A stretch of 64,000 nucleotides of DNA from Ensifer adhaerens (GTDB lineage Bacteria > Pseudomonadota > Alphaproteobacteria > Rhizobiales > Rhizobiaceae): contig NZ_CP015882.1 of assembly GCF_000697965.2 (NCBI RefSeq), forward strand, positions 310,001 to 374,000, in the 5' to 3' direction. Below are positions 42,651 to 60,145 of this stretch, one piece after another. A program made the translations under genes and the position numbers. Numbering within the stretch: position 1 is the stretch's first letter; every line of letters begins with the position of its first letter. The notes under the pieces were generated by a model. That model searched no databases. It was not told the origin of the DNA and worked only from the letters and a program-made list of their open reading frames with translations.

Positions 42651-42658
42651 TAAACACC

Positions 42659-43990: not shown

Positions 43991-44019
43991 ACAGCTTCTA
44001 CAATAAAATGGGGCGGAAT

Positions 44020-44991
44020 ATGATTGGTCGACTGATACTCACCTATCCCGAAGCGTCGCGCAGGGCAGGCGGCCTGCTAATCCTTGCGATCGTCGTGGCG
44101 ATCCTTTACTCCCTCGGGGTCAGTTCCGCCTGGATCGGCCATGTTCTGCCGTCCTTGACAGACTGGCTGAAGGAGAACCCAGCGATCAGCCGCGTCGTCT
44201 CGTCGGTGCTGATCGCGCTCATCGTCGCCGCCAACTGGCAGGCGCTGCGCCAGCTGTCACGCCGCCAGCAGATCGTCGCCGTCTGGCTCGAGCTGTTCGC
44301 GCTCCTGATGCTGTTCTTCTACTCCTTCGATCTTTCCTTCGCCTTCATCGCCAAGAAGATCGGCTTCCTCATCACGCAGGGCGTGACGACGACGCTCTTC
44401 ATTTCGGCGATTTCGATCGTCATCGCCACCATCATCGCGCTGGCCGGCGCCATCGCGAAACTCTCCAACAATGGCGTGATCTACGGGCTTGCAACGTTCT
44501 ATACGTCGCTTTTCCGCGGACTGCCGCTGCTCATGCAAATTTACATCATCTATCTCGGCCTACCGCAGGTGGGTTACGTGATCGGCGCCGTACCGGCTGG
44601 CATTCTCGCGCTCTCGCTGTGTTACGGCGCCTACATGACGGAAATTTTTCGCGCCGGCATCCAGAGCATCAATCGCGGTCAGACGGAGGGCGCGACCGCG
44701 CTCGGTCTCACTCCGGCGCAGACGATGATGCTGGTCATCTTGCCCCAGGCCATGCGGGTCATCATCCCGCCGACTGGCAACCAATTTATCGCAATGCTGA
44801 AGGATTCCTCGCTGGTATCTGTCGTAGGCGTTTGGGAAATCATGTATCTCGCCCGCACCCAAGGCCAGACGGAATTCCGACATATCGAGATGCTGATCAC
44901 CGCCTCCATGATCTACTGGACCCTTTCGATTTGCCTGGAATATGCCCAGTCCCGCATCGAGGAACGGTTTGGCCGCTTCAATGTCCGCTGA
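44020..44991 (+). CDS. Amino-acid ABC transporter permease (HisM/GlnP type)
   Basis: A 323-residue permease, longer than the usual 220-250 because of two extra N-terminal membrane helices (residues 10-90) before the conserved domain. The latter begins VTTTLFISAISIVIATIIAL and has the ATPase-contact loop GATALGLTPAQTMMLVILPQ near residue 225-245. ATG 44020 has GGGCGG five bases upstream; ATG 44008 is an alternative. It is the only permease, implying a homodimer. No ATPase gene is in this operon. Confidence 0.85.
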   Translation: MIGRLILTYPEASRRAGGLLILAIVVAILYSLGVSSAWIGHVLPSLTDWLKENPAISRVVSSVLIALIVAANWQALRQLSRRQQIVAVWLELFALLMLFFYSFDLSFAFIAKKIGFLITQGVTTTLFISAISIVIATIIALAGAIAKLSNNGVIYGLATFYTSLFRGLPLLMQIYIIYLGLPQVGYVIGAVPAGILALSLCYGAYMTEIFRAGIQSINRGQTEGATALGLTPAQTMMLVILPQAMRVIIPPTGNQFIAMLKDSSLVSVVGVWEIMYLARTQGQTEFRHIEMLITASMIYWTLSICLEYAQSRIEERFGRFNVR

Positions 44992-45871
44992 GGCATCCGT
45001 GGCAGACAGCGACGGCACTCCGGTCGTGCCGTCGTCGAACCGTCGGGGCGCGCTGCTCGTGCTCGCCGCCTTCTTTATGTTCTCCGCAACCGATGCGATC
45101 GTCAAGATCATGGCGGGAACGATGCCTGCGCCGCAGGTGACCTTTTTCGTCACCATTGCAGCTCTCCTTCTGCTCTTGGTCCATGCACTCGCAACCGGCC
45201 GTCTTCGCCGCCTCATCCCACGCCAACCGTCGCTCGCCTTCTGGCGAGCGCTGCTGCTGGCGTTCGATACGCTGCTGATCCACTATGCCTTCGCCAAGTT
45301 GCCGCTTGCGGAAGCCTATCTTATCGCCTTCCTCACGCCGATCCTGGTGGCGATGCTGAGCTTCGTCTTCCTCAAGGAGCGGCTGTCGCGCATCGGCTGG
45401 GCCGGTGTACTGATCGGCTTTGCCGGCGTCGTCGTGGCGCTGAAACCGGGCGTCGCGCCGCTCAATCTCGGCCATCTCGCCGCCTTTGGATCTGCCGTGC
45501 TTTTTGCGCTCTCGTTAATCCTGCTGCGCCGGGCGAAGGTGACGGAAACGGATGAAGCGCTGGTTGCCAGCCTGCTCGTCGTTATGACGCCTGTCGCCTT
45601 CGCGGTTGCGGCTGTTTCGGGCGAGCCAGAACCGCTCCGCCTTACCGATCTTGGCTTATCAGTCGCGGGCGGTGCCTTGATGCTGGGCGGACATGCGTTG
45701 CTGGTGCGCGCTTTCCGTGTTGGCGAGGCTTCGGTCGTTGCGCCGTTCCAGTACAGTCAAATCATCTGGGGCTGCTTCTACGGCATCTTCCTCTTCGCAA
45801 CGCCGTTAGAGCTGTACACGCTGCTGGGCGCGGCGATCATCATCCTGTCCGGATGGCTTGTCCTGAAATAA
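44981..45871 (+). CDS. EamA/DMT-family transporter
   Basis: A 296-residue drug/metabolite transporter with ten hydrophobic helices arranged as two EamA repeats; the first repeat ends at ...AMLSFVFLKERLSRIGWAGV and FLKERLS is the characteristic post-helix motif. ATG 44981 overlaps the permease by 11 bases, so it is in the same operon. It probably exports an amino acid or metabolite arising from the oxidase reaction. Direction and substrate are inference. Confidence 0.85.
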   Translation: MSAEASVADSDGTPVVPSSNRRGALLVLAAFFMFSATDAIVKIMAGTMPAPQVTFFVTIAALLLLLVHALATGRLRRLIPRQPSLAFWRALLLAFDTLLIHYAFAKLPLAEAYLIAFLTPILVAMLSFVFLKERLSRIGWAGVLIGFAGVVVALKPGVAPLNLGHLAAFGSAVLFALSLILLRRAKVTETDEALVASLLVVMTPVAFAVAAVSGEPEPLRLTDLGLSVAGGALMLGGHALLVRAFRVGEASVVAPFQYSQIIWGCFYGIFLFATPLELYTLLGAAIIILSGWLVLK

Positions 45872-46170
45872 GCTTGAGGGCAGCGAGTTTCCTGCGGCTG
45901 TGCAGGGCAAGAAGATGCTTTTTGCGCCCGCCGAAAGGCAGGAGGCGATCACCGTGTCGATCCGCTTCTGCAGGGCGAGACGCCCGACTGGATGCGCAGG
46001 GATTACTGTTCGTCGAAGTTCAGCAGGGACATGTCTTCATTGCCATGGATTAAAAAGTTGTAAGACAACGGACATTGTGGATGTTGCCAGTCAAGGCGAT
46101 CCTTGGAGCGGCTGGAAGTGCAACCTCTCGCACGGTTTCTGCATACGCCCTACACTTGACCATCCCGGAT
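45872..46170. other. Intergenic, no gene recognised
   Basis: About 300 bases between the DMT gene and the GntR regulator. No supported gene. The GntR promoter and its possible operator at 46171 lie at the right end. Confidence 0.5.
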
Positions 46171-46181
46171 TTGTCAGACAA
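46171..46181. promoter_or_regulatory. GntR-type operator candidate
   Basis: TTGTCAGACAA is an 11-base odd palindrome (arms TTGTC/GACAA around A) located 36 bases upstream of the GntR gene. Short dyads of this form are typical of GntR-family sites. Likely autoregulatory, but not proven by a second copy in the window. Confidence 0.45.
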
Positions 46182-46217
46182 GGAAGTTGCAACGACAATC
46201 AATGACGAGGCACGCCG

Positions 46218-46949
46218 GTGGAGGAGCCCCTTCGCGATTCACGCACCCTCGCTGTCCAGCTCCGGGACCGGATCGCCGATCTTATCAAAGATAAAGGGCT
46301 GAGGCCGGGCGACAGGTTGCCGACCGAAGCACAGCTGACGCAGCGGTTTAAGATTTCTCGGCCGGCGCTGCGCGAGGCGCTGAAACTGCTCGAACAGGAC
46401 GATGTGATCAATGTCGAGCATGGCCGTGGCCGGTTCGTCTCGGCGCTCTCAGCCGTGCAGGTCGATCGACCGATCACCGTCTTCGAGAGCGTTACGGACA
46501 TGGCGCGGCACTACGGCTACCGGACGGTCAACAAGGTACTTTCGATCTCCGAGGAGGCGCCGGACGCGTGCGTCGCCGAGAGCCTAAGGCTTGGCCCGGC
46601 GGACCGTGTGATCCGTATCGAGCGCATCCGCCTGCACGAGGACGAGCCGATCCTCTACTGCATCGACTACATGCCGCGCAGCCTCATTGAAGGGCGCCTC
46701 TACGACATCGACTGGAGCGGCTCGCTGATGCAGCTCATGGAGGAATACGGCAACCGCCCGCGCATGTCGGCGGCCAGCGTTTCCGCTGTCATGCTGCCGG
46801 ACGACATTGTCGAGCGTCATGGTCTGAAGGACTTCGGCCCAGCGCTTCTCATCACCGAAACTTGTTTCAACGCCGCCGGCGCGCCGGTGAACTACGCCAT
46901 CGACTACCATCGCGGCAGCCATTTCTCCTTCAGCCTCGTTCGTAAATGA
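46218..46949 (+). CDS. GntR/HutC-family regulator with UTRA domain
   Basis: A 243-residue regulator. The GntR winged HTH covers residues 10-72 (LIKDKGLRPGDRLPTEAQLT, ISRPALREALKLLEQDDVI), then a UTRA effector domain (residues 85-240) ending FNAAGAPVNYAIDYHRGSHF. The only reasonable start is GTG 46218. It follows the amino-acid/oxidase operon on the same strand and precedes a LacI gene. It could control the upstream importer operon or, because the Escherichia coli fructoselysine regulator FrlR is also GntR/UTRA, the Frl-like operon downstream. Confidence 0.85.
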   Translation: MEEPLRDSRTLAVQLRDRIADLIKDKGLRPGDRLPTEAQLTQRFKISRPALREALKLLEQDDVINVEHGRGRFVSALSAVQVDRPITVFESVTDMARHYGYRTVNKVLSISEEAPDACVAESLRLGPADRVIRIERIRLHEDEPILYCIDYMPRSLIEGRLYDIDWSGSLMQLMEEYGNRPRMSAASVSAVMLPDDIVERHGLKDFGPALLITETCFNAAGAPVNYAIDYHRGSHFSFSLVRK

Positions 46950-47056
46950 TGTCGCTGTAGGGGCAGGAACCGTGCGTCACGCGCATGACTAGGCGAGCGT
47001 GCTATCCGAAGCTACAAGGGATCGCGAAGCGTCCTGCTCGTACGATTGGAGGTGAC

Positions 47057-48079
47057 ATGGTTCAGAAACCGGCGACTTTGAAGGATGTGGCGGCGCTGGC
47101 CAATGTGTCGCGCGCGACGGCCGCCCGGGCTCTCAACAGTTACGGATATGTCGGCGACGAAACCGCCCAAAAGATCCAGGCGGCCGCGGAAAAGCTGGGC
47201 TATCGCGGCAACCGCCTCGCGCAGGCGCTGCGTAGCGGGCAATTGCCGATCGTCGGTTGCATCCTCGGCGATATCCAGAACCCGTTCTTCGCCCGCATCG
47301 CGCACGATATCGAGGTCCTCGCCCGCGAGTTCGGGCACAATCTCATCATCGGCAGCAGCGAGGAGGAGTTGGCGCAGGAAATTTCCCTTCTGGCGAGCCT
47401 CCGGTCACTAAGCATCCGCGGCTTCATCGTCGCGCCGACCTCGGAGGGCAACAACGCCCACCTCCAGGGTCTGGTCGACGAGAACGTGCCGCTGGTGCTG
47501 ATCGACCGTGTCGCAGAGGGCGTCGATTGCGACAGCGTCGTCGTCGACAACGAGGGCGGCGCCCGCAAGGCCGTCGAATACCTGATCGGCATGGGCCATA
47601 CCCGCATCGGCCTGTTGCAGGACGACATGCGTATCTTTACCTCACGCGAGCGCAGGAGCGGCTATAGGTCGGCGCTCGCCGCGGCCGGGATCGCGGCCGA
47701 CGACCGTATGGTCGCCGTGTCGCAATCCACCGTGGAGCACGCGGTCGATGCGACCATACGGCTCTTCAGCCAGAAGACACCGCCGACGTCGCTTTTCACC
47801 GTCGACAGCCTGATGACGCAGGGCGCGCTCCTGGCCTTTCGATCAATGGGGGTTTCCATCCCGCACGACGTCTCGCTCATCGGTTTCGACGACTTCAATC
47901 TGGCGACTTTCACCGATCCGCAGATTACCGTCGTTTCGCAGCCCGTCTCCGAGATTGGCCGCACGGCTGCTCGGGTGCTGTTCGAAAGGCTCACTGGCAA
48001 AGACGAGCCGCCGCGCAAAATTCGCTTTGAAACCAAGCTGATAGTTCGCGGCTCGGTGAGCCGCCGCGGCGGCGTCTGA
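47057..48079 (+). CDS. LacI-family transcriptional regulator of the Frl-like locus
   Basis: A 340-residue LacI regulator. The HTH is at about 5-50 (TLKDVAALANVSRATAARAL), followed by a hinge and a sugar-binding-like effector domain. ATG 47057 is preceded by GGAGGTGAC. It lies 170 bases upstream of the FrlB-like gene, and a perfect 20-bp palindrome with a central CpG lies between them. It is most likely the local repressor, responding to an Amadori compound or its phosphate. Confidence 0.88.
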   Translation: MVQKPATLKDVAALANVSRATAARALNSYGYVGDETAQKIQAAAEKLGYRGNRLAQALRSGQLPIVGCILGDIQNPFFARIAHDIEVLAREFGHNLIIGSSEEELAQEISLLASLRSLSIRGFIVAPTSEGNNAHLQGLVDENVPLVLIDRVAEGVDCDSVVVDNEGGARKAVEYLIGMGHTRIGLLQDDMRIFTSRERRSGYRSALAAAGIAADDRMVAVSQSTVEHAVDATIRLFSQKTPPTSLFTVDSLMTQGALLAFRSMGVSIPHDVSLIGFDDFNLATFTDPQITVVSQPVSEIGRTAARVLFERLTGKDEPPRKIRFETKLIVRGSVSRRGGV

Positions 48080-48150
48080 GCGCCGCAAACCCCGCCTCAA
48101 AAAATTCGAGACGCCCACTTGCCAGCGCGAAAGTCTTGTGCGCTAAATAT

Positions 48151-48170
48151 ATGTGAGATCGATCTCACAT
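48151..48170. promoter_or_regulatory. LacI-type operator upstream of Frl-like operon
   Basis: ATGTGAGATCGATCTCACAT is a perfect 20-bp palindrome with a central CG pair, 78 bases before the FrlB-like start. A -10-like TAAATA lies at 48144-48149 just in front, so a bound repressor would block transcription. It superficially resembles a CRP site (TGTGA/TCACA), but the spacer is 8, not 6. Confidence 0.7.
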
Positions 48171-48248
48171 CGTCTCAAAGTTTATTCGCGTTGGGACGCC
48201 ACCTCGCTTCAAAGGCGATTTCGCGCAGCGCAAAACGGGAAGGTACAA

Positions 48249-49262
48249 ATGCTCAACTTCGATAGAGATCGCTTTGTGACGATACAAAGCGGTGCAGTCG
48301 CAATCGCCGACGACATGCGCGCCCTGATGCGCGGTCTGCTCGACGACGGTCTGGAACGCATTTTCTTCATGGGGACCGGCGGCGTGCAGTTCCTAACCCA
48401 GCCGGCCATCGAGCTTGCGCGCGCTTTGACGGTATTCCCGGTTTCGGCCGCCTATTCGGCGCAGGTCGTGCTGGAGCCCCCGGCGGGCCTCAACGAGAAG
48501 GCGCTGGTCGTGCTGCCCTCGCTGTCGGGCACGACCAAGGAAAGCGTGCAGCTTCTCGCCTTCCTTAAGGAGCGCGGGGTGAAGACGCTGTCGCTCACCG
48601 GGCACAAGGACACGCCGCTCGGCCGCGACGCCGACTACAACTTCACCAATTTCGCCGAAGACGATACGTCCTCGGAATCCTTCTACCTCCAGACCCTGCT
48701 CATCGTGCTCGCGCTGCTGGCCGAGCGCGGCGAATACGCCGATTTCGACGCGACGGTCGGCGAACTGGCGCTGTTGCCGGAGCTATTGGTTTCGGTGAAG
48801 GAGGGCTACGAGGCCGAGGCCGCCGCGCTCGCCCGGGAAATCAAGGACGAAACCTACCACATCTTCACCGGCGCCGGTTCCGTCTGGCCGGAAGCGCACT
48901 ACTACGGCATGTGCATTCTGGAGGAAATGCAGTGGATCCGCACGCGCCCCGTGCAGGCATCCGACTTCTTCCACGGCACGCTGGAACTGGTGGAACCGGG
49001 TGTCAGCCTCTTCATCTTCAAGGGCGAGGATGCCTTCCGCCCATTGACGGACCGCGTGGAGAACTTCGCCAAGCGCTACACCGACAAGGTGCGCGTTCTC
49101 GATGCGGCTGCCGCCGACCTTCCGGGCGTCTCGGCCAGGACGCGCAGTCTCATCTCGCCGATTGTCCTGGCGACCATGCTGGAGCGCTTGAGCGCGCATC
49201 TGGAGGTGCTGCGCGACCATCCGCTGACCACGCGCCGCTACTACAAGCGCGTCGAATATTGA
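48249..49262 (+). CDS. FrlB-like SIS-domain deglycase (fructosamine-6-phosphate type)
   Basis: A 337-residue protein with two SIS domains, about the length of fructoselysine-6-phosphate deglycase. The segment FFHGTLELVEPGVSLFIFKG, then VENFAKRYTDKVRVLD, and the C-terminus RRYYKRVEY closely follow E. coli FrlB. In FrlB the glutamate and histidine near FRHGPLE act in catalysis; here FHGTLE retains both. ATG 48249 follows GGGAAGG. As first gene of the operon with a kinase and an epimerase it should split a 6-phosphofructosyl-amino acid into glucose 6-phosphate and the amino acid. Confidence 0.85.
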   Translation: MLNFDRDRFVTIQSGAVAIADDMRALMRGLLDDGLERIFFMGTGGVQFLTQPAIELARALTVFPVSAAYSAQVVLEPPAGLNEKALVVLPSLSGTTKESVQLLAFLKERGVKTLSLTGHKDTPLGRDADYNFTNFAEDDTSSESFYLQTLLIVLALLAERGEYADFDATVGELALLPELLVSVKEGYEAEAAALAREIKDETYHIFTGAGSVWPEAHYYGMCILEEMQWIRTRPVQASDFFHGTLELVEPGVSLFIFKGEDAFRPLTDRVENFAKRYTDKVRVLDAAAADLPGVSARTRSLISPIVLATMLERLSAHLEVLRDHPLTTRRYYKRVEY

Positions 49263-49269
49263 GGTTTTC

Positions 49270-49293
49270 CGGTCCGGCGGCGACGCCGGACCG
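49270..49293 (+). promoter_or_regulatory. mRNA stem-loop between deglycase and binding-protein genes
   Basis: A perfect 10-bp stem (CGGTCCGGCG / CGCCGGACCG) closed by a GCGA tetraloop of the stable GNRA class begins seven bases after the deglycase stop. It may terminate partially or mark an RNA processing site so that the binding-protein message is more abundant. Confidence 0.6.
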
Positions 49294-49344
49294 TTCCCCG
49301 ACCTTGCATGTCCCAAAGAAACAACAACAGAGAGGAACTGCGAA

Positions 49345-50670
49345 ATGAAAGCCAATCCGTTCTTGAGCACGACGAGCCTCGGGTCGATCGCTGCTGCCGC
49401 CTTCGTCATCGGCAGCGTCGCTGCTGCATCTGGCGCGGAGCCGGTCGTCGCCGATCCCAATGCGACGGTCGACTATTCCGGCACGGTCAGCGTGCTGACG
49501 AAATTCGGTCTGCAGCAGCTTTCTCCCTTCTTCGTCGATGCCGCCCGGGACTATGAAAAGCTCCACCCCGGCGTGAAGGTCGACCTCATCCAGGAGAGCG
49601 ACGACAGCGTGAAGGGCAAGACGAAGGCGCTCGTGGCCTCCAATTCGCTGCCCGACGTCTATTTCACCTGGACGGGCAGCTGGGGTGAGAATTTCGTGCG
49701 CGGCAACCGCGCCGTCGATCTGACCCCGGTCATCGGTCCGGATACCGAATGGGGCAAGTCGCTCGCGACCGCTGCCGTCTCCGCCTTCCAGTACAATGGC
49801 AAGCTTTACGGCATTCCGCTTTATCTCGACGCCAAGTTCATGGGCTACAACGAGAGCCTGTTCGAAAAGGCGGGTGTCGCTGAGCCCAAGTCCTTCGAGG
49901 AGCTGCTCGGCGCCTGCGCCGCCCTGAAGAAATCCGGCGTCACGCCGATCTCCTTCGGCAACAAGGAAGGCTGGCCGGGCGTGCACTATGCCGGGCAGCT
50001 GCTAGCCTACAACGTGCCGCAGGCCACGCTCGAAAAGGATTTCATCCCTGCTACGGCCGAATTTGCCGATCCCGGTTATGTCGCCAGCCTCACACAGTTC
50101 AAGCAGCTCATCGACGAATGCTCTAATGGTTCAGGCACGAACGGCTCATCCTACGCCTCGGCCTTGCAGCAGTTCAGCAACGGCAAGTCCGCCATGTACT
50201 ATCAGGAAATCATCGAGTTCGACCAGTCGACCGCGGACGGTGCGCTGAAACGGGAAGATTTCGGCTTCTTCAAGCTGCCGGTGCCGAAGGATGCCAAGGG
50301 AGACCCCAAGGCGGTCGAAGGCGCGCCGGAAGGCTACATGATCAATGCGGCTTCCAAGAACATTCCGCTTGCGATCGATTTCATGAGGTTCGTCACCTCG
50401 GCCGAAAACGGCAAGGTTCTCTCCGCGCCGCCTTATGGCCAGCCGAGCGCGACGGTCGGCGGATATTCGGTAGACGCCATGAACCCGGCCGTGGTCGACG
50501 GCCTCAAGGTGATCGCCGACGCCTCCTATCTGATGCCCTGGCTCGATACCGCCAATCCGCCGCGCGTTGCGGCCGCCTGGTTCTCCGGTCTCCAGGCGCT
50601 GATCGGCGGCTCCATGACACCCGAAGAGGTCATGGAACGGGTCAAGGAAGCAGCGACTTCGTCCAAGTAA
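49345..50670 (+). CDS. Family 1 ABC transporter substrate-binding protein of Frl-like operon
   Basis: A 441-residue sugar-type binding protein with a signal peptide (residues 1-30, ending AASGAE). The body shows VLTKFGLQQLSPFFVDAARD, then YFTWTGSWGENFVRGNRAVD and MYYQEIIEFDQ, typical of the carbohydrate CUT1 receptor group. ATG 49345 follows AGAGAGGAACTGCGA. It is followed by two CUT1 permeases and, at the end of the operon, an ATPase. Predicted to bind Amadori compounds or related glycosyl-amino compounds. Confidence 0.87.
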   Translation: MKANPFLSTTSLGSIAAAAFVIGSVAAASGAEPVVADPNATVDYSGTVSVLTKFGLQQLSPFFVDAARDYEKLHPGVKVDLIQESDDSVKGKTKALVASNSLPDVYFTWTGSWGENFVRGNRAVDLTPVIGPDTEWGKSLATAAVSAFQYNGKLYGIPLYLDAKFMGYNESLFEKAGVAEPKSFEELLGACAALKKSGVTPISFGNKEGWPGVHYAGQLLAYNVPQATLEKDFIPATAEFADPGYVASLTQFKQLIDECSNGSGTNGSSYASALQQFSNGKSAMYYQEIIEFDQSTADGALKREDFGFFKLPVPKDAKGDPKAVEGAPEGYMINAASKNIPLAIDFMRFVTSAENGKVLSAPPYGQPSATVGGYSVDAMNPAVVDGLKVIADASYLMPWLDTANPPRVAAAWFSGLQALIGGSMTPEEVMERVKEAATSSK

Positions 50671-50683
50671 GGATCGGCCCAGG

Positions 50684-51649
50684 ATGACTGTCATGAAGCA
50701 CGAGCAGAATGGTGAAGCCGTCAAAATCGGCTTCGCCGGGCCGGACCGGGCGCAAAGCCATCGGTTCGGCCCGCTGGCCGGGATCCTGTCGTTTCGCTGG
50801 GTGCTGGTCGCGTTCGTCCTGATCCTGTGGTTTGTCTATTATCCCATCATCGACAATTTCGTCGTGAGCACGAAGAACCAGGACATCTTCACAGGCGAGA
50901 CCGCTTTTATAGGACTGGACAATTACCGCCGCCTGCAGGGCGACCCGGTCGTCTGGACGGCGATCGTCAACAACACGCTCTATGCCGTCATCTCCGTCAT
51001 TTTCCAGGTTTTCGGCGCGTTCGTGCTGGCGGCCCTCATCGAGGGGCTTGCTGATGAGAGATGGCGCCGGTTCTGGCGCGCCGTCTATTTCATACCCTCG
51101 GCCATCTCGATCACCGTCACCGGCCTTCTATTCTATTTCATCTACCAGCCCGATATCGGCCTAATGGATTCGGCGCTGACGCAGCTCGGGCTTGCGGAGT
51201 GGTCGCGCGCCTGGCTCGGCGAGGAGGGCACCGCGATCTACGCTATCATCGCCATGAGCCAGTGGCAGGGTTTCGGTTATTCGACTCTGCTGTTCGCTAT
51301 CGCGATCCAGAAGATCCCGCGCGAACTCTACGACGCGGCGATCATGGACGGGGCAGGGACTTGGCGGCGCCTATGGAACATCACCTTTCCGCTCACCCGC
51401 GAAATGACCGGCCTGATGGTAATCGTCACGATCACCGGTGCGTTCCAGGTCTTCAACGAGGTCATGGTGATGACCGGCGGTGGGCCGAACAACAGCAGCC
51501 AGGTGCTCGGCACATGGCTTTACCAGCAGGGTTTCATCGAAAACGACTTCGGTTATGGCGCGGCCATCGCAACGGTTATCTTCGTCATCACGCTGATCAC
51601 CGGCTTCGCGCAGCTCTGGTACACCAAGAGACGGAGGGTCGATCTGTGA
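50684..51649 (+). CDS. CUT1-type ABC permease (first)
   Basis: A 321-residue permease with six spans and the EAA loop DAAIMDGAGTWRRLWNITFP near residues 215-235. It starts 13 bases after the binding protein stop and its stop overlaps the second permease (GTGA). Forms a heterodimer with the next gene product. Confidence 0.9.
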   Translation: MTVMKHEQNGEAVKIGFAGPDRAQSHRFGPLAGILSFRWVLVAFVLILWFVYYPIIDNFVVSTKNQDIFTGETAFIGLDNYRRLQGDPVVWTAIVNNTLYAVISVIFQVFGAFVLAALIEGLADERWRRFWRAVYFIPSAISITVTGLLFYFIYQPDIGLMDSALTQLGLAEWSRAWLGEEGTAIYAIIAMSQWQGFGYSTLLFAIAIQKIPRELYDAAIMDGAGTWRRLWNITFPLTREMTGLMVIVTITGAFQVFNEVMVMTGGGPNNSSQVLGTWLYQQGFIENDFGYGAAIATVIFVITLITGFAQLWYTKRRRVDL

Positions 51650-52506
51650 GCGTCACCTATCAACCGCGGGAAACCGAGCGCACCGACTTCGCCGCCGTGC
51701 TGGCGAAGACCTGCCTCGTTACCTTCCTGATCAGTCTCGGCTTCGTCGTGCTCTATCCGCTGTTCTGGATGGCGATGAACGGCTTCAAGACCAATGCCGA
51801 AATCTTCGGCAACCCCTTCGCGCTGCCGAGCGGCTTCAGCATCGCAAACTATATCTCGGCCTGGAACCAGGGCATCCGGAATTACATCGCGACAAGCGTC
51901 ATCGTCACGCTCGGATCGGCCGTCTGCACGGTGCTGGTCAGCGCCTGGACAGCCTATGGCCTCACGCGTTCGAAATTGCCCGGAAAGCCGTTTTTCGTCG
52001 GCATCGTGCTCGGTGGCCTCATGCTAAGCCCGACGGTCGCGGTCATCCCACTCGTGCGCATGATGCAGGGCCTTGGCCTCTATAACACCTATTGGGCGCT
52101 GATCATCCTCTATACCGCCTTCCGCATTCCCTTCACGACCTTCCTGATCCGCGCCTACATGCTCGGGCTGCCGCGGGATCTCGACGAGGCCGCCACCATG
52201 GACGGTGCCAGCGAAGGGCAGATTTTCCGGAAGGTGACGCTGCCGCTGTGCAAGCCGATCCTGGTGTCCTGCGTCATCCTGCATGTGCTCTTCGCCTGGA
52301 ACGAGTATCTCTTCGCGATGATCTTCACCAGCGGCGCGGATTTGCAGACGCTGCCCGTCGGCCTCACCTCCATCATGGCAAAGCACGGAACCAACTATGC
52401 CGTCGTCTTCGCCGCCATGACGCTCTCCGCACTTCCCATCGTCATCACCTTCTTCGCCGCCCAGCGCTTCTTCATCCGCGGGCTGGCCGAAGGCATCGGA
52501 AAATAG
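51646..52506 (+). CDS. CUT1-type ABC permease (second)
   Basis: A 286-residue permease. The EAA loop reads DEAATMDGASEGQIFRKVTL. GTG 51646 overlaps the upstream stop and is the probable start; longer frames only overlap the first permease. It is followed nine bases later by the FrlC-like gene. The hydrophobic profile (six spans) is normal. Confidence 0.9.
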   Translation: MSVTYQPRETERTDFAAVLAKTCLVTFLISLGFVVLYPLFWMAMNGFKTNAEIFGNPFALPSGFSIANYISAWNQGIRNYIATSVIVTLGSAVCTVLVSAWTAYGLTRSKLPGKPFFVGIVLGGLMLSPTVAVIPLVRMMQGLGLYNTYWALIILYTAFRIPFTTFLIRAYMLGLPRDLDEAATMDGASEGQIFRKVTLPLCKPILVSCVILHVLFAWNEYLFAMIFTSGADLQTLPVGLTSIMAKHGTNYAVVFAAMTLSALPIVITFFAAQRFFIRGLAEGIGK

Positions 52507-52515
52507 GGCGGGCAC

Positions 52516-53361
52516 ATGTTGAAACGAAACCAGCTCATCGGTGCGAACTTCTCCTTTCAGCACCATTCCTTCCGCTGGACAGCCGAAAAGCTCAGCGCCA
52601 TGGGCCTTCAGCAGATGGAGCTCTGGGGCATCGCCCCGCATCTCGATCTCTTCCACGACAACCGCGCACGGCTTGCGGAGGTGAAGGCGATCCTCGGCGA
52701 CAACGGATTGGCCGTACGTTGCTTCACGCCAGAGCAGGTTCTTTATCCGATCAACATCGCCTCCGGCGACAGCGCCTACCGCGAGGCCAGCGTCGAGCGT
52801 TTCATGCAGGCCGCCGATGTCTGCGCGGAGCTGGGAGCGCAATATCTCTTCCTGACGCCGGGCCGCGGCTTCGAGTGCGAAAGCCGACAAACCGCCTGGG
52901 CCAATTCGATCCAGTCGATCAACCGGATCGCCGCCCATGCGTGCGCGCTTGGCGTCTCCTGCCTGCTGGAGCCGCTGCAGCGCCTCGAAAGCAACATCGT
53001 CACCAATGCCGATGCGCTTGAGAGCTTCTGGCGCGCGCTCGACGGTGACGATATCGATATCGTTCTCGACCTCGTCGCCATGGCGACGGCAGAAGACAGC
53101 GTCGGCGACTATTTCGCGCGCTTCGGCAAGCGCATCGCGCATGTGCATGTCGTGGATGGAACGCCAGCGGGGCATCTTGCCTGGGGCGACGGCAACCTGC
53201 CGCTCGACGACTATATCGGGCAGCTTGGCAGGCACGGTTTCGCCGGCACGCTGACTTTCGAACCTTTCGGCAACGGCTCCTATGCGCTCGACCCCGTTTC
53301 CGCCTGGCGGCGATGCCTCGAAGCCATTGCACCCCATCTCGATGAAACGGACACAGAATGA
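52516..53361 (+). CDS. FrlC-like sugar isomerase/epimerase
   Basis: A 281-residue TIM-barrel protein resembling fructoselysine 3-epimerase FrlC. Shared features are the ELWGIAPHLDLF (E. coli EIWGGRPHAF), CFTPEQVLYPINI (TPETNGYPYN) and LLEPLQRLESNIVTNADAL (LEPLTPYESNVVCNANDVL) segments, which include metal-binding Glu residues. It ends with the EPFGNGSYALDP segment. It overlaps the kinase gene by four bases. Likely role: interconverting the C3 epimers of the Amadori substrate so both can enter the pathway. Confidence 0.78.
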   Translation: MLKRNQLIGANFSFQHHSFRWTAEKLSAMGLQQMELWGIAPHLDLFHDNRARLAEVKAILGDNGLAVRCFTPEQVLYPINIASGDSAYREASVERFMQAADVCAELGAQYLFLTPGRGFECESRQTAWANSIQSINRIAAHACALGVSCLLEPLQRLESNIVTNADALESFWRALDGDDIDIVLDLVAMATAEDSVGDYFARFGKRIAHVHVVDGTPAGHLAWGDGNLPLDDYIGQLGRHGFAGTLTFEPFGNGSYALDPVSAWRRCLEAIAPHLDETDTE

Positions 53362-54227
53362 CGAAGGCCAATCCCAACCTGATCGCCGTCGGCGACAATT
53401 GCCTCGATGCCTATCTGAGCAAAGGGTTCGTCACCGTGGGCGGCAATGCCCTCAATGTCGCCGTCCAATGGCGGCAACAGGGGTTGAATGCCCGCTATTT
53501 CGGTGCGCTGGGCCCGGATGCGGAAGGCGATATCATGCTTGCCGCCATCGCGGAGGCGGGGCTTGATCGCAACGATGTCGAAATCCGTCCCGGCGCGTCT
53601 GCTGTGACGCTGCTGACGGACGATGCCGGCGAGCGACGTTTCCTTCTCGAGTCGCTCGGAGTGGGCGAGGATTATGTTCCAAATGCTGATCGCTACGAGG
53701 CGTTGCGGCAAGCCGACTGGTTGCATCTCGGCACAAATTCCAGCGAAAGGCTCATCCGCCGGCTCGTCGCCGATGGCATTCCCTTCAGCATCGACATTTC
53801 CACACGGCATTTCGACCTTTCGCTCGATGGCGTGCCGCTTGTCTTCGCCTCCGGTCCGGACGATCCGACCAAGCCGGTCGAGCCGCTGATCGCGCGGTTC
53901 AGGGCCGCGGGCGCACGAGAGGTCGTCGTCACCTGCGGCAGGCGGGGATCCTTCTATCATGATGGTTCGACGGTGTTCGCGGCGGGTTCTGTGCCGGTCA
54001 CGGTCGTCGATACCTGCGGTGCAGGGGACAGCTTCATCGCGACCTTCATCATGTCGCGGTTCTTCGCAGACCTGTCCGGACAGGCCGCGCTCGACAGCGC
54101 CGCCGAAAGAGCATCCGAGACCTGCACCCATCTCGGCGGCTTCCCGCAGCCCATCCGGCCAATCCCGGAATGGCTGCTTAAGAAATATGACGATGTCATC
54201 GGCAGCACCGAGAGGGCGGGAACATGA
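53358..54227 (+). CDS. FrlD-like PfkB-family kinase
   Basis: A 289-residue PfkB carbohydrate kinase resembling fructoselysine 6-kinase FrlD: AVGDNCLDAYLSKGFVTVGG (E. coli TIGDNCVDIYP..SGG), NALNVAVQW, and the C-terminal anion-hole motif DTCGAGDSFIATFIMS with the catalytic Asp. Start overlaps the FrlC-like stop and its stop overlaps the oxidase start, so the three are translationally coupled. Expected to phosphorylate the imported fructosyl-amino acid at C6 before the FrlB-like step. Confidence 0.83.
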   Translation: MTKANPNLIAVGDNCLDAYLSKGFVTVGGNALNVAVQWRQQGLNARYFGALGPDAEGDIMLAAIAEAGLDRNDVEIRPGASAVTLLTDDAGERRFLLESLGVGEDYVPNADRYEALRQADWLHLGTNSSERLIRRLVADGIPFSIDISTRHFDLSLDGVPLVFASGPDDPTKPVEPLIARFRAAGAREVVVTCGRRGSFYHDGSTVFAAGSVPVTVVDTCGAGDSFIATFIMSRFFADLSGQAALDSAAERASETCTHLGGFPQPIRPIPEWLLKKYDDVIGSTERAGT

Positions 54228-55627
54228 ACACCATCACGATGAGGCCGCCCGTCGCGGCACCGAAGGGCGATCGTTCCTTCTGGCTGCAGAGCATTGCGGC
54301 GGATGCCGTCACGCCGCCCCTCAAGGGCAGCGCGGATTGCGACGTCGCGATCGTCGGCGGTGGCTATGCCGGCCTGTGGACTGCGCTGAGGATCAAGGAA
54401 CAAGCGCCCGAAACGCGTGTCTCCGTGCTCGAAGCGGATTTCTGCGGTTCCGGAGCTTCCGGTCGCAACGGCGGCCAGGTCCATAGCTGGTTTGCCGAAA
54501 TCGACATGCTGCGCGCGCTTGTCGGCGAGGATGACGCGCTCATGCTGTGCCGGGCGACCGCCGACGCCATCGAGGAGCTTAATGGCCTGCAGGCCTCCGG
54601 TGCCATCGACATGGATCTGAGACTCGACGGCTGGCTGTGGACGGCAAGTTCGACCGCGCAGGAGGGGGCCTGGGCTGCGGCCCGCGACCTCAGCCGGACG
54701 CTCGCCGAGGACCGCCTGCATCCGCTCCAGCGCGCCGATATCCTGCGCCGCACCGGCTCGGACGTCTCCTATGTGGGCATCATCGAGGAGAGGGCGGGAA
54801 CCGTGCAGCCCGCAAAGCTCGCCCTCGGCCTGCGACGGCTCGCCCTCGAAAGGGGGATCATCATCCATGAGCAGAGCCCGGTTCTCGAAATCGTGCCCGG
54901 TTCCACGCCGCAACTGCGCACAGCATGCGGCGTGCTTTCCGCCGGCAAGGTGGTGCTCGCCGCAAATGCCTGGCTTTCGGCCATCGCGGAATTGCATGCC
55001 TATCTCTACGTGGTTAGCAGCCAGGTCATCGCGACGGCGCCGGCGCGCGATGTCCTGGAGCAGATCGGCTGGACGGACGGCGCCTCGATCTGCGATGCGC
55101 AGCAGCATGTGCTCTACTACCAGCGCACGCCCGAGGGCACCGTCGTCTTCGGCCGGGGCACGGGGGGCATCGCCTATGCCGACCGCATTGACGCCCGCTT
55201 CAATCGGAGCGGCGACGGCGGCGCCGACAATATCCGCGAGATGCACCGGGTGTATCCTGAGTTGAAGCATGTGCCTGTCCTTTACGACTGGAGCGGCCCG
55301 ATCGATTGCACGGCGCAGCACCTGCCGGTCTTCGGCCATCTGAAGGACCACGCGAACATCTTTTACGCGATGGGCTTTAACGGTACGGGCATCGCGCAAA
55401 CGCCCGTCGCCGGCCGCATCATGGCAAGCCTTGTGCTCGGGCGTGACGACGCCTGGAGCCGGTGTGGGTTGGTTGGCATTGAAAAGCGCACGCGGCTTCC
55501 GCCCGAGCCGCTGCGCTATCTCGGCGCGCGCGTCGTGCGGCATGCCATCCGGCGCAAGAACGATCTCGAGATCATCAACAGAAAGCCGGGTCCGGTCACG
55601 CGGTTCCTGGCCGGGCTCGCGCCCTGA
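54224..55627 (+). CDS. DAO-family FAD oxidoreductase of Frl-like operon
   Basis: A 467-residue FAD enzyme. The dinucleotide site CDVAIVGGGYAGLWTALRIK is at about 31-50 and GSGASGRNGGQVHSW follows; FNGTGIAQTPVAGRIMASL completes the FAD site. It is related to but clearly distinct from the PuuB-like enzyme at 42704. No such enzyme belongs to the E. coli frl operon. It could oxidise Amadori compounds directly (fructosyl-amino-acid-oxidase-like chemistry) or the freed amine or amino acid. The former reading is speculative. Confidence 0.78.
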   Translation: MNTITMRPPVAAPKGDRSFWLQSIAADAVTPPLKGSADCDVAIVGGGYAGLWTALRIKEQAPETRVSVLEADFCGSGASGRNGGQVHSWFAEIDMLRALVGEDDALMLCRATADAIEELNGLQASGAIDMDLRLDGWLWTASSTAQEGAWAAARDLSRTLAEDRLHPLQRADILRRTGSDVSYVGIIEERAGTVQPAKLALGLRRLALERGIIIHEQSPVLEIVPGSTPQLRTACGVLSAGKVVLAANAWLSAIAELHAYLYVVSSQVIATAPARDVLEQIGWTDGASICDAQQHVLYYQRTPEGTVVFGRGTGGIAYADRIDARFNRSGDGGADNIREMHRVYPELKHVPVLYDWSGPIDCTAQHLPVFGHLKDHANIFYAMGFNGTGIAQTPVAGRIMASLVLGRDDAWSRCGLVGIEKRTRLPPEPLRYLGARVVRHAIRRKNDLEIINRKPGPVTRFLAGLAP

Positions 55628-55668
55628 CGGCGCGCTGTCTTGCAATTGCAAATAACGGAACGGGAACG

Positions 55669-56766
55669 ATGGCCGATTTATCGCTGAGAAACATTCGCAA
55701 GGCTTATGGTGATCTCGAAGTCCTGCACGGCATAGACCTTGAGATGAGGTCGGGCGAGTTCATCGTCTTCGTCGGCCCGTCTGGGTGCGGGAAATCCACT
55801 CTGCTGCGCTCGATTGCCGGCCTTGAGACAATCACGTCAGGCGACCTCGTCATCAATGGCGAGCGAATGAATGCCGTCGCGCCCTCCAAGCGCGGCATCT
55901 CCATGGTGTTCCAGTCCTATGCGCTTTACCCGCATATGACCGTCTACGAGAACATGGCCTTCGGACTGCGTATCACCGGAACGCCGAAGGCGGAGATCGA
56001 TATGCGGGTGCGAAAGGCGGGCGAAATACTCCAGCTCGACGAGTACCTACAACGCCACCCGAAGGCGCTTTCCGGCGGGCAACGGCAGCGCGTGGCGATC
56101 GGGCGTGCCATTGTGCGAAATCCGCGGGTCTTTCTATTTGATGAGCCCCTGTCCAATCTGGATGCCGCGCTGCGCGTCGCCACCCGCATTGAGATCGCCA
56201 AGTTGAAGCAGAGCATGCCGGAAGTAACGATGATCTACGTCACCCACGACCAGGTCGAGGCGCTGACGCTGGCGGACCGTATCGTCGTCTTCAAGGACGG
56301 CAACATCGAGCAGGTCGGCACGCCGACCGATCTCTACCGCAAGCCGGCGAACCTCTTCGTCGCGCAATTCATCGGCTCACCGGCAATGAACATCCTTAAA
56401 GGTAAGGTCGTGGGCCGTTCCGCGACATCGGCACGCTGCCAGCTTGACTGCGGTGTGGTCCTTGATATTGAGGCAGAACGTGGCAGCCTTTCAAGGGGCG
56501 AGGCGATCAGCGTCGGCATTCGCCCGGAAAACATACGGATAGGCGACAGTCATGGGACGGATCCGACATTTGCCGGAACCGTCGATCTCGTGGAGCATCT
56601 CGGCGAGGTGCAAATACTCTATCTGGACCTGAACGGCGCCCGTGAAAAGTTTTTGGTCAAGGTCGATGGGGAGAGTGCATTTTCACGCACGCAGAGCGTT
56701 AATTTCACCGCGCGCCGCCGGGATATCCACATCTTCGACACTGCGGGAAGAGCCGTTCGAAGCTAG
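55669..56766 (+). CDS. CUT1-type ABC ATPase (MsmK/UgpC/MalK type)
   Basis: A 365-residue ATPase. Walker A GPSGCGKST, signature SGGQRQRVAIGRAI, Walker B FLFDEPLSNLD and the switch histidine (VTHDQVEALTLADR) are intact; the C-terminal part is the TOBE/MalK-like regulatory domain. It lies at the end of the operon, 41 bases after the oxidase stop, and is the ATPase for the permeases at 50684 and 51646. Confidence 0.9.
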   Translation: MADLSLRNIRKAYGDLEVLHGIDLEMRSGEFIVFVGPSGCGKSTLLRSIAGLETITSGDLVINGERMNAVAPSKRGISMVFQSYALYPHMTVYENMAFGLRITGTPKAEIDMRVRKAGEILQLDEYLQRHPKALSGGQRQRVAIGRAIVRNPRVFLFDEPLSNLDAALRVATRIEIAKLKQSMPEVTMIYVTHDQVEALTLADRIVVFKDGNIEQVGTPTDLYRKPANLFVAQFIGSPAMNILKGKVVGRSATSARCQLDCGVVLDIEAERGSLSRGEAISVGIRPENIRIGDSHGTDPTFAGTVDLVEHLGEVQILYLDLNGAREKFLVKVDGESAFSRTQSVNFTARRRDIHIFDTAGRAVRS

Positions 56767-56778
56767 GTGAACCGATCT

Positions 56779-57353
56779 TGCAGCCATCAGTTCGGGAGGC
56801 TCTTGCCGGGATCAGGCAGTCAGGCGATCCCGATCTCTGGGCCGCCTGCAACAACAATCTCGCGTCTGCGCTTGGCTGACTGGCATATGCATCACCGACA
56901 ATCGACAGGAACAGACTCTTGCGTGCGGCAGCAACGGCTTGGGGTGATGTGCTTCAGGTGCGCAAAAGAGAGGACAATGAGTTATTGTGGGCGCGAGCGA
57001 GTGCAAACGTCGCCCGCGCAGTCTCCGATTTGTTTCACTACCTGCTCGTGGAGGATGGTGGCGAAATTACAGAGCGCGTGCGAGAGGTGGCGAGCAATGC
57101 AATCCATCTCTTTGAAGAGGTTATCGACGTGATGCGGCGCGTGCCGAATGACTATGCGGCCACGCTACAAGACGTCCCAACGATCCATGCCAACGTCAGA
57201 TCTTACGGATCTGCCATTCAGCTTTTGCAAGAGGCGCGCGAGGTTTTCCAAGAAACGGAAATGCCGCTGGCATTGGTACGTGCCAAGAAATGCTTGGAAA
57301 AATCGCAGCCGCACAAGCACCATCAGGTTAGGCCGCGAAAGGCCGATCGCTGA
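56779..57353 (+). pseudogene. Helical-repeat (TPR-like) protein remnant
   Basis: A TTG-initiated frame at 56919-57353 encodes VLQVRKREDNELLWARASAN, then SAIQLLQEAREVFQETEMPL and a charged tail, reminiscent of tetratricopeptide units (amphipathic helix pairs). Just upstream in another frame is AIRQSGDPDLWAACNNNLAS, another TPR-like piece ending at a stop. It is probably a decayed TPR protein. No catalytic domain is visible, so identity remains open. Confidence 0.45.
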
Positions 57354-57492: not shown

Positions 57493-58089
57493 TCAACGCG
57501 CGCTGACCATTGAATCGAAACCGATGAGAAAAGCGTCGACCATGGCATGAAGACGACGCGGTTCAACTCCATCGCGTGCTTGAACCGAAAGCCCGTGCAG
57601 CAAGGTTGCGCAGCAATCGCCTATGGCAATTTCATCGACATGTGCCGGGATCTCCCCCGATCGTTTCCCCGCGATCAGGCGGTCAATGATCGATTGCGTT
57701 CGCGCCTTCCGATGCTCGGCCAGCCAGTCTCTGATCGCCTCGTTCTGCTGCGTGCAATTCGTCGCCGCCGATACGACCATGCATCCCTTCAGTCCGTCGG
57801 TATAGAGCGCCACTGCCGCCCGGAACATGACTTCCAGAACTGAGCGGACGTCGCTGTTCTCGAGCATGGCTCGCTCGGCAAAGCCGCCCTCATTCGTCTC
57901 GTAGTGTTCGATAGCTTCCCGAAACAAGGCCTCCTTGGAGCCGAAAGCGGCATAAATCCGCGCGGAGGCGATGCCAAGGCCATCCACCAGATCGGTCATG
58001 GAAACACCTTCGAACCCGCGCGCCCAAAACAGATCCCGGGCTCTCTTCAGCGCCACGTCCCTGTCAAACTCTCTGGGTCTACCTGCCAC
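57493..58089 (-). CDS. TetR-family repressor
   Basis: A 198-residue TetR regulator. The N-terminal HTH (residues 8-58: ARDLFWARGFEGVSMTDLVD, ASARIYAAFGSKEALFREAI) is intact and the C-terminal ligand domain is of the TetR_C type with LKGCMVVSAATNC. It is divergent from the isomerase-hydrolase operon, with 96 bases between starts, holding two similar palindromes. It most likely represses both itself and that operon. Confidence 0.92.
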   Translation of the reverse strand: MAGRPREFDRDVALKRARDLFWARGFEGVSMTDLVDGLGIASARIYAAFGSKEALFREAIEHYETNEGGFAERAMLENSDVRSVLEVMFRAAVALYTDGLKGCMVVSAATNCTQQNEAIRDWLAEHRKARTQSIIDRLIAGKRSGEIPAHVDEIAIGDCCATLLHGLSVQARDGVEPRRLHAMVDAFLIGFDSMVSAR

Positions 58090-58103
58090 GTCGCGCTCCT
58101 ATG

Positions 58104-58119
58104 TTTGTCGATCGACAAA
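58104..58119. promoter_or_regulatory. TetR operator 1
   Basis: TTTGTCGATCGACAAA is a perfect 16-bp palindrome located 15 bases upstream of the TetR start. It recurs with one change at 58157-58172, centres 53 bp apart. Confidence 0.8.
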
Positions 58120-58153
58120 TAATTCGCTTGACGCGGAGATGCAAGGCTGCCAA

Positions 58154-58175
58154 TTCTTTGTCGATCAACAAAGAA
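58154..58175. promoter_or_regulatory. TetR operator 2
   Basis: A 22-base near-perfect palindrome built around TTTGTCGATCAACAAA (58157-58172), the same motif as operator 1 with a single mismatch. It ends 11 bases before the isomerase GTG start, so binding would block the operon promoter or early elongation. Confidence 0.78.
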
Positions 58176-58185
58176 AGGCCATCCA

Positions 58186-59268
58186 GTGAAAACCATAAAA
58201 GGCCCAAGCCTCCATCTCGCTCAATTCAGCGATGCCAATCCGCCCTTCAACACGCTAAAATCAATTGCGGAATGGGCGAGCGGAATGGGCTTTGCCGCCC
58301 TTCAGATACCTGCCTGGGACCAACGCCTGATCGACATCGCCAAGGCGGCAGAGAGCCAAGCTTACTGCGACGAGATCAAAGGCACGCTTGCCGAGCACGG
58401 CTTGCAGGTCAGCGAACTGACCACGCATATCCTTGGACAGCTTGTCGCTGTCCACCCGGCGTACGATGCGATGTGCGATGCGTTCGCTCCTGAGGAGCTT
58501 CGTGGAAACGCCGCTGCCAGGAGCGAATGGGCTCTGCAGCAAATCAAGTTGGCCGCGAAAGCCTCGCGGCGGCTTGGACTGACCGAGATGGGAACGTTTT
58601 CGGGCTCATTCCTCTGGCCCTACTTCTTTCCGTTTCCACAGCGTCCCGAAGGCTTGGTCGATGCCGCCTTCGACGAACTGACCAGCCGCTGGAAGCCCAT
58701 TCTCGACAACTGCGAAGAAGAGGGGATCAACCTATGTTATGAACTTCACCCGAGCGAAGACCTTCATGACGGCGCCAGTTTCGAGATGTTTCTTGATCGC
58801 ATCGGTGGCCATCAGCGGGCCCAAATCCTCTTTGATCCCAGCCACTTCGTCTTGCAGCAGCTCAAGTATCTCGACTTCATCGACATTTATCACGAGCGCA
58901 TCGGCATGTTCCATGTCAAGGACGCTGAATTCAACCCGACCGGACGCCAGGGCATCTATGGCGGCTACCAGTCCTGGGTAAACCGTGCGGCCCGATTCCG
59001 TTCGCTGGGCGATGGCCAGGTCGACTTCCGCTCGATCTTCTCGAAATTTGCCCAGTATGATTTTTCGGGCTGGGCGACGTTGGAGTGGGAATGCTGCCTG
59101 AAGAACCAGGAAGACGGAGCGCGCGAGGGCGCTGCCTTCATTCGTGATCACGTGATCCGCGTCACGGATAAGATTTTCGACGATTTCGCCGGAACGCCGC
59201 TGAGCGTCGGCCAAATGAACAAGATCCTCGGCATCTCCAACTCTTTCGCAGGAAAACACTATGGCTAA
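58186..59268 (+). CDS. Sugar phosphate isomerase/epimerase-family TIM-barrel protein
   Basis: A 360-residue xylose-isomerase-like protein. Likely metal-binding residues occur in CYELHPSEDLHDG, LFDPSHFVLQQ, MFHVKDAEFN and WATLEWECCLKN, the canonical Glu-Asp-His-Glu spacing. The start is GTG 58186, close to operator 2. Its end overlaps the next gene by eight bases. Operon partners are two alpha/beta hydrolases, so this looks like catabolism of a glycoside- or lactone-type compound rather than central metabolism. Confidence 0.8.
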   Translation: MKTIKGPSLHLAQFSDANPPFNTLKSIAEWASGMGFAALQIPAWDQRLIDIAKAAESQAYCDEIKGTLAEHGLQVSELTTHILGQLVAVHPAYDAMCDAFAPEELRGNAAARSEWALQQIKLAAKASRRLGLTEMGTFSGSFLWPYFFPFPQRPEGLVDAAFDELTSRWKPILDNCEEEGINLCYELHPSEDLHDGASFEMFLDRIGGHQRAQILFDPSHFVLQQLKYLDFIDIYHERIGMFHVKDAEFNPTGRQGIYGGYQSWVNRAARFRSLGDGQVDFRSIFSKFAQYDFSGWATLEWECCLKNQEDGAREGAAFIRDHVIRVTDKIFDDFAGTPLSVGQMNKILGISNSFAGKHYG

Positions 59269-60145
59269 TCTATTGGTGTCGGACCACGCGTCCGAAGGTT
59301 TCGCGCATCGCTACGTGCGCGTCGACGGGCAGAAAATCCACTGCGCCACGATGGGCGAGGGCAAGCCGGTGTTGCTGATCCCCGGCTGGCCACAGACCTG
59401 GTACGCCTGGCGCTACGTAATGGTCGCCTTGGCGCAAAATGGCTTCCAAGCCATTGCCGTCGACCCCATCGGCACCGGGTTTTCCACGAGACCGGAAAAC
59501 GGCTACGACACGGGCTCAGTCGCGCGTCTCCTGCACCAGCTTATGACTGCGCTTGGTCACACCCGCTACGGTGTCGCCGGACATGACGTCGGCATGTGGG
59601 TCGGATACGCGCTGGCGAGCGACTACCCGGACGCCGTGGAACGCATCGCGCTGACAGAAGCTGTCATTCCCGGTCTCGCGCCTGCGCCGCAAATCTTCGT
59701 ACCCCCTTCGGACAACATCTTCCTCTGGCATTTCATGTTCAATCAGGTCCTGGATCTGCCGGAATTCCTCACATCGGGACGGGAGAAAGAATATCTCGGC
59801 TTCATGTTCGACAAGTGGTCTCACCGCAGGGACCGGGTCGCAGCGGATGTCTATGCAGCTGCCTACGGGACACCAGGGGGTATCCGGGCCGGCTTCTCCT
59901 ATTACCGGGCGATCCCCGAAACCATCCGTCAGAACCAGGTACGGGCGAGCCGGCCGTTGGCGATGCCGGTCTTGGCTATAGGTGCGGAGCACGCGACGGT
60001 GGACGCGCCTATGCAAACGATGCGCCGACATGCGAGCAACCTGCGCGGCGAGATTGTCCGCGATTGTGGCCATTTCATAATGGAAGAATGCCCGGACGAT
60101 TTCATCGCACAGGTTGTTCCCTTCTTTCTGGAGGGGGCAGCCTGA
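59261..60145 (+). CDS. Alpha/beta hydrolase, epoxide-hydrolase/dehalogenase-like
   Basis: A 294-residue alpha/beta hydrolase. Oxyanion LIPGWPQTWYAW at 39-50 and the nucleophile Asp109 in VAGHDVGMW place it in the epoxide hydrolase/haloalkane dehalogenase branch rather than among Ser-esterases; the base His is in RDCGHFIMEE near residue 270. Start overlaps the isomerase gene, and its stop overlaps the next start (TGATG). Substrate could be an epoxide, halide or ester; unknown. Confidence 0.85.
   Translation: MANLLVSDHASEGFAHRYVRVDGQKIHCATMGEGKPVLLIPGWPQTWYAWRYVMVALAQNGFQAIAVDPIGTGFSTRPENGYDTGSVARLLHQLMTALGHTRYGVAGHDVGMWVGYALASDYPDAVERIALTEAVIPGLAPAPQIFVPPSDNIFLWHFMFNQVLDLPEFLTSGREKEYLGFMFDKWSHRRDRVAADVYAAAYGTPGGIRAGFSYYRAIPETIRQNQVRASRPLAMPVLAIGAEHATVDAPMQTMRRHASNLRGEIVRDCGHFIMEECPDDFIAQVVPFFLEGAA

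Follow-up and report, generated by a model that had tools for sequence, protein, structure and literature searches.

The fructoselysine (frl) operon of Escherichia coli imports its substrate through the FrlA permease, and to our knowledge no oxidase belongs to the enteric frl and gfr systems. In published systems, the Amadori product is first phosphorylated at C-6 by a kinase and then split by a deglycase into products such as glucose 6-phosphate and a free amine; microbes are said to rely on either amadoriases or fructosamine kinases (PMC12632257). In Bacillus subtilis, the frlBONMD-frlP locus encodes an FrlB-type deglycase, an FrlD-type kinase, and the type I ATP-binding cassette (ABC) importer FrlONM-FrlP, which takes up fructosevaline, and the excerpt names no epimerase or oxidase for this locus (PMC12632257). 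Salmonella relies on the phosphotransferase system GfrABCD for uptake (PMC12675984). The Agrobacterium soc genes (socR and socABCD, on pAtC58) serve the catabolism of Amadori opines, include a gene for a flavin adenine dinucleotide (FAD) oxidoreductase, and confer the use of deoxyfructosyl-glutamine (DFG or santhopine) on A. tumefaciens C58 (PMC4231840). Amadori compounds themselves are found in rotting plant matter and in the rhizosphere (PMC4231840, PMC12632257). Here, we describe an operon of Ensifer adhaerens at positions 47057-56766 of a 64,000-nucleotide stretch (NZ_CP015882.1, positions 310,001 to 374,000; hereafter the window), in which homologues of FrlB, FrlC, and FrlD are encoded together with an ABC importer and an FAD oxidase. 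The operon is of a known general kind, and what is new is its dedicated oxidase. Searches of openly licensed papers listed no title or abstract opening that describes it.

The operon comprises nine genes, all on the forward strand, which are separated by short gaps or overlap by four bases and read as a single operon. They encode a LacI-family regulator (47057-48079, assigned by family scans), an FrlB-like SIS deglycase (48249-49262), a CUT1 solute-binding protein (49345-50670, PF01547), permease 1 (50684-51649, PF00528), permease 2 (51646-52506, PF00528, with a GTG start), an FrlC-like 3-epimerase (52516-53361, PF01261), an FrlD-like PfkB kinase (53358-54227, PF00294), a DAO-family oxidase (54224-55627, PF01266), and a UgpC/MalK-type importer ATPase (55669-56766, NF008653). 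Overlaps of four bases join FrlC to FrlD and FrlD to the oxidase. The genome measures 7.27 Mb, the operon lies on its contig 3, and window positions 46200-56800 are 100% identical to NZ_CP121310.1. A preliminary description of this DNA, made from the letters and open reading frames, had proposed the same genes, order, and overlaps; family scans recovered every gene it named, all on the forward strand. With a solute-binding protein, two permeases, and a UgpC/MalK ATPase, the importer has the parts of a CUT1 system. Its ATPase (467.1 bits against a cut-off of 432) was the sole protein to pass a curated cut-off in the NCBIfam scan of the operon proteins, which left out permease 2.

The locus thus shares its types of deglycase, kinase, and importer with ATPase with the B. 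subtilis frl genes, whose repressor is FrlR instead of a LacI-family protein. With E. coli frl and Salmonella gfr, it would share a deglycase acting on 6-phosphates, the nearest solved SIS proteins being 2a3n and 8glr; its uptake system is a CUT1 importer and not a phosphotransferase system. The preliminary description had seen this importer as taking the place of FrlA; CUT1-type importers are not new to Frl systems, given that of B. subtilis (PMC12632257). What the operon would have in common with soc is Amadori catabolism and an FAD oxidoreductase gene; the soc operon, however, has an amino-acid-type importer and, in the stretch examined, no kinase or deglycase gene.

A gene-neighborhood search, which the preliminary description had suggested, showed that this type of operon recurs. 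The set of related loci (L numbers) consisted of the best 80 of 574 found through FrlB, 59 of which have an FrlB of more than 70% identity, all with a LacI gene. Conservation was counted in the 54 loci with at least 6.6 kb of DNA downstream of frlB; this left out L009, L035, L040, L056, and L058, where the DNA ends early, although the oxidase is visible in L009, L040, and L058. The solute-binding protein, both permeases, FrlD, and the oxidase were each present in 53 of the 54 loci, the ATPase in 46, LacI in all 54, and FrlC in at most 43, a number that takes in L010 and L011, which have no full-length FrlC between permease 2 and FrlD. The gene order is conserved far beyond chance.

Because the locus set was found through FrlB, we also tested the linkage in draws made with the oxidase. 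When the oxidase was searched alone in 397 genomes of the order, relatives of at least 60% identity were present in 11 genomes, and all 11 have one copy within 6.2 kb of frlB, the frlB-linked oxidase of one of them (G703) being cut by a contig end. On plasmids, frlB lies no more than 9.3 kb away in 24/24 records with an oxidase of at least 60% identity. In contrast, none of the 17 plasmid records with a lower oxidase identity was among the 60 listed of 128 frlB records, and the fetched regions around relatives at 35-44% identity (12 and 10 regions) contained no frl genes. A tree of 89 rows separates, at a branch with support 97/95, the 64 frlB-linked oxidases, five of which are actinobacterial, from 24 unlinked paralogues; the outgroup, a very long row, groups with the linked oxidases. 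Eleven of the 24 unlinked rows were labeled before their neighborhoods were read, and the regions fetched later, some on contigs of 7.5-10.5 kb, held no frl gene. The draws made with the oxidase outweigh the tree, since the linked rows came mostly through FrlB. The two sides also differ at one stretch, G387-T388-G389-I390-A391-Q392, which is invariant in 44 aligned oxidase relatives and in the unlinked paralogues mostly follows GNG[VI]xx, a crude pattern. These sequence comparisons mark the oxidase as a distinct group that is nearly always found with frlB and argue against a casual addition. The preliminary description was correct that an oxidase is present.

The oxidase belongs to PF01266, the glycine/sarcosine oxidase fold family, and its predicted structure (predicted local distance difference test score, 87.8) shows this fold. 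Its nearest curated family is TIGR03329, with 419.3 bits, below the cut-off of 632.8. PbfC and PbfD of phosphonate clusters oxidize N-methyl-aminoethylphosphonate and, to a lesser extent, the free amine (PMC10590968); PbfD appears to belong to TIGR03329. As these enzymes oxidize amines, amine chemistry is likely for the oxidase as well, with no one substrate singled out. The oxidase had no significant BLASTP similarity to SocD (E 0.61-0.75) and fell outside the SocD amadoriases. Automatic names of such oxidases range from amino-acid oxidase to gamma-glutamylputrescine oxidoreductase.

In the NCBIfam scan, the top match of each of the three enzymes was the Frl family that the preliminary description had named. 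FrlB scored 95.3 bits against NF008481 (cut-off 430), FrlC 108.9 bits against NF007360 (cut-off 305), and FrlD 125.2 bits against NF007321 (cut-off 247), the latter two being the best library matches. Because these scores lie below the curated cut-offs, the proteins are relatives and not equivalogs of the Frl enzymes, and in this form the proposal of FrlB, FrlC, and FrlD homologues in one operon stands. The FrlB-like protein matched the Protein Data Bank entries 2a3n (206 bits, residues 1-337), 3eua (142 bits, residues 19-337), and 9ou6 (121 bits, residues 33-337), thus over all or most of its length. We take 2a3n and 8glr to be Salmonella GfrF, 3eua to be B. subtilis FrlB, and 9ou6 to be FraB. 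Its E226 and H242, which presumably have catalytic roles, align across the five chains shown, and in length and in the retained glutamate and histidine it conforms to the broader group of fructosamine-6-phosphate deglycase-type SIS proteins. By eye, the FrlC-like protein retains E152, D185, H211, and E249, which we take to correspond to the metal ligands of tagatose 3-epimerase, and the FrlD-like protein retains GAGD at 221-224, presumably active-site residues.

The strongest independent evidence pointing to Amadori substrates is the adjacency of soc operons in relatives. Among the 51 loci whose DNA extends 8 kb or more upstream of frlB, 12 carry within those 8 kb a soc operon whose SocD is complete and shares 57-85% identity with its A. 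fabrum C58 counterpart. In nine of these (L009, L016, L020, L024, L025, L034, L045, L047, and L054), socD ends about 250 bases or less from the LacI gene, and in six of the 12, SocC was not found. Neither L021, where socD is split in two and the other soc genes are missing, nor L011, with a 60-residue piece of SocD, was counted, and the fetched DNA of L003 and L004 begins inside socB. Two Arthrobacter loci with an oxidase of the frlB-linked group also carry soc genes.

Upstream of frlB, we found a LacI-type operator overlooked by the preliminary description, which had noted the regulator gene. It is a perfect 20-base palindrome, ATGTGAGATCGATCTCACAT, at 48151-48170, located directly after the promoter-like TTGCCA and TAAAT. 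Its 14-base core is conserved before frlB: of the 59 loci, 49 have it exactly, seven with one mismatch, and three with two. Among 987 random stretches from the same loci, two mismatches were the closest match, seen in six. No other site in the 7.27-Mb genome comes within two mismatches over 18 bases, and, given this single site, control by the LacI protein is probably confined to this operon. Locus L039 has a second exact operator core, at about 17569, before a module for a solute-binding protein, an oxidase, and a permease, which suggests joint control of that module there.

Together, these data make it likely that the operon serves a substrate-inducible, phosphorylative catabolism of Amadori compounds. 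This reading is supported by the Frl-type kinase, deglycase, and epimerase, which are encoded in a single operon and retain their likely active-site residues, by the soc operons adjoining in relatives, and by the B. subtilis frl importer, which is also of the type I ABC class. The uptake of fructosyl-amino acids or Amadori opines, proposed in the preliminary description, and their breakdown gain support from the enzyme homology and from the soc neighbors in relatives. The CUT1 importer would take up an N-fructosyl amine or amino acid; FrlC would probably convert a C-3 epimer, FrlD would phosphorylate the sugar at C-6, and FrlB would cleave the 6-phosphate, releasing the amine or amino acid along with glucose 6-phosphate. 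Until an inducer is present, LacI may repress the operon by way of the single operator that closely follows the promoter. The oxidase at 54224 would be a dedicated partner that oxidizes an amine of the pathway, whether the Amadori compound itself, a product, or a by-product.

Several observations weigh against this reading. All three Frl homologues fall wide of the curated cut-offs. A complete SocD is missing from the DNA covered in 39 of the 51 loci, and a search of the E. adhaerens genome at E 1e-10, run with no positive control, gave no SocD match, nor was there one within the window; as a result, the soc argument rests on relatives. L060, from an actinomycete metagenome-assembled genome, has LacI and FrlB with no oxidase and is the sole miss among the 54 loci. 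On contig 4 of G703 (L162, 9669-10597), a partial oxidase has no frlB in the preceding 10 kb; there, a piece of frlD is followed, at the contig end, by the first 197 oxidase codons. Last, 23 frlB places were sampled at an identity of at least 53%, and at 10 of them the fetched stretch contains no DAO-family gene, so that not every alphaproteobacterial FrlB requires an oxidase. The other 13 have such a gene within about 9 kb, against a rough background of about 0.11 per place. The DAO-family kinds near frlB are the frlB-linked group, the oxidase of the module described below, SocD, and another in L120.

If the operon does act on Amadori compounds, the oxidase could have either of the two roles raised in the preliminary description, a second or a finishing route, which we weigh about evenly and hold tentatively. 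It may be a parallel amadoriase that acts on the sugar C1-N bond of the imported Amadori compound, giving glucosone and the free amino acid. Alternatively, it may finish the phosphorylative route by oxidizing the amine or amino acid released by FrlB, or a related secondary amine that enters with the substrate. The finishing role fits the close linkage to frlB in the draws made with the oxidase and the naming of the nearest family, TIGR03329, as an aminophosphonate oxidoreductase. It also agrees with PbfD enzymes, which oxidize secondary amines and primary ones less well (PMC10590968), and with the oxidase having its own invariant stretch where most unlinked paralogues have GNG[VI]xx. However, the operon contains no aldehyde dehydrogenase or transaminase gene for the product, and a dedicated oxidase is hardly needed for released amino acids.

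It is conceivable, though short of probable, that the oxidase is a new FAD amine oxidase of Amadori pathways that works only together with the phosphorylative route, with the released amine, a side product, or the phosphorylated intermediate as its candidate substrate. The two known Amadori routes, by kinase and deglycase and by oxidase, would then be combined in a single regulated operon; in Ensifer, one kinase and one deglycase would serve two importers and two oxidases. The oxidase gene is bound to kinase and deglycase genes in a conserved operon, often on plasmids and sometimes beside soc. The gene set, the single operator, and a tractable type of host offer a handle on the contribution of the oxidase and would help to correct the automatic names given to such proteins.

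Action on another conjugate of a sugar or amino sugar, by an FrlB and an FrlD of shifted substrate, is unlikely. It would suit the scores far under the Frl equivalog cut-offs and the breadth of the SIS and PfkB families; against it stand the three Frl-type enzymes together, the soc neighbors, and the nearest solved relatives, which are deglycase-type SIS proteins. That the oxidase is a passenger with no role in the pathway is very improbable, for despite L060 and the 10 frlB places with no DAO-family gene, it is present in 53 of the 54 loci of this operon type, forms one group across Alphaproteobacteria and Actinomycetota, and overlaps frlD by four bases in the window.

To the left of the operon, the window holds a second importer and oxidase module (the u-module), which the preliminary description overlooked together with a remnant of an frlB2 gene; its picture of an operon at 47057-56766 stands. 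The forward-strand u-module genes encode an amino-acid-type ABC solute-binding protein with an ATG start (41823-42650, PF00497), a second DAO-family FAD oxidase (42704-43990, PF01266 with 214.7 bits), an amino-acid-type ABC permease (43969-44991, from family scans), and a DMT/EamA-type transporter (44942-45871), the starts of the latter two being uncertain. In pairwise alignment, the u-module oxidase is 26% identical to the oxidase at 54224. These genes are followed by a GntR/UTRA regulator of the HutC type (46218-46949, forward strand; PF07702, PF00392), which is 62-89% identical to the GntR proteins of the frlB2 loci L067-L082 and probably regulates the u-module. The sites TTGTAAGACAA (46058) and TTGTCAGACAA (46171), both within 46058-46181 on the forward strand, resemble GntR operators and may act as such; both recur in the gntR-frlB2 interval of 10 of the 13 frlB2 loci examined. 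A further candidate site, TTGTCAGACA (41766-41775, forward strand), resembles those before gntR and may have the same function.

The frlB2 remnant lies on the reverse strand at 45908-46026 and corresponds to about the first 40 codons, with one stop and a frame change. Window positions 45895-46298 align with the gntR-frlB2 region of L077 at 73.9% identity over 417 columns (E 2e-73), and the best protein piece of the remnant scored 43.1 bits, compared to 26.9 for the best of 200 shuffles. Twelve other loci have relatives of the u-module (41823-46949) together with frlB2 and frlD2, which in most of these loci are divergent from gntR. In the window, only the frlB2 stub and the two GntR-type sites occupy the frlB2-frlD2 position. 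The E. adhaerens u-module may therefore be pictured as having once had its own frlB2-frlD2 and lost both, and it may now depend on the FrlB and FrlD of the operon. A remnant matching the stub is also found in L003, L004, and L007. The u-module has relatives in Sinorhizobium meliloti as well, and in L010 and L039 its part for the solute-binding protein, oxidase, and permease follows the LacI operon. It does not always occur with frlB (2 of 6 sampled genomes). Unlike in the window, soc genes precede the u-module in L003 and L004.

From 41629 through 56414, the gene arrangement of the window is collinear with that of other Ensifer loci, and synteny with L003, L004, and L007 begins at 41629. The left edge of this common stretch is marked by a 44-base inverted repeat (41639-41682) that forms a strong hairpin (fold z -7.19; none of 200 shuffles was as stable). 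In Ensifer adhaerens Lc04, the island occurs twice on different scaffolds (L004 and L007), with soc genes upstream in L004 only. The operon of Rhizobium daejeonense (L151) lies on a plasmid typed as conjugative, and directly before its LacI operon, at 2724-10606, are genes for an amino-acid importer, a GntR regulator, an SIS protein, an FAD oxidoreductase, and an epimerase. L120, another FrlB/FrlD/CUT1 cluster, has two different DAO-family genes in or beside it (7930-9414 and 15603-16733), one of which is 56% identical to SocD. Directly downstream of the operon, at 57493-60145 of the window, lie a TetR-like open reading frame (judged by eye) and genes for a xylose-isomerase-like TIM-barrel protein and an alpha/beta hydrolase. 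Farther upstream, at 33592-34881, the window encodes an autotransporter beta-domain protein, the N-terminal part of which is a run of FDWPDGRPDVGPQP-like repeats.

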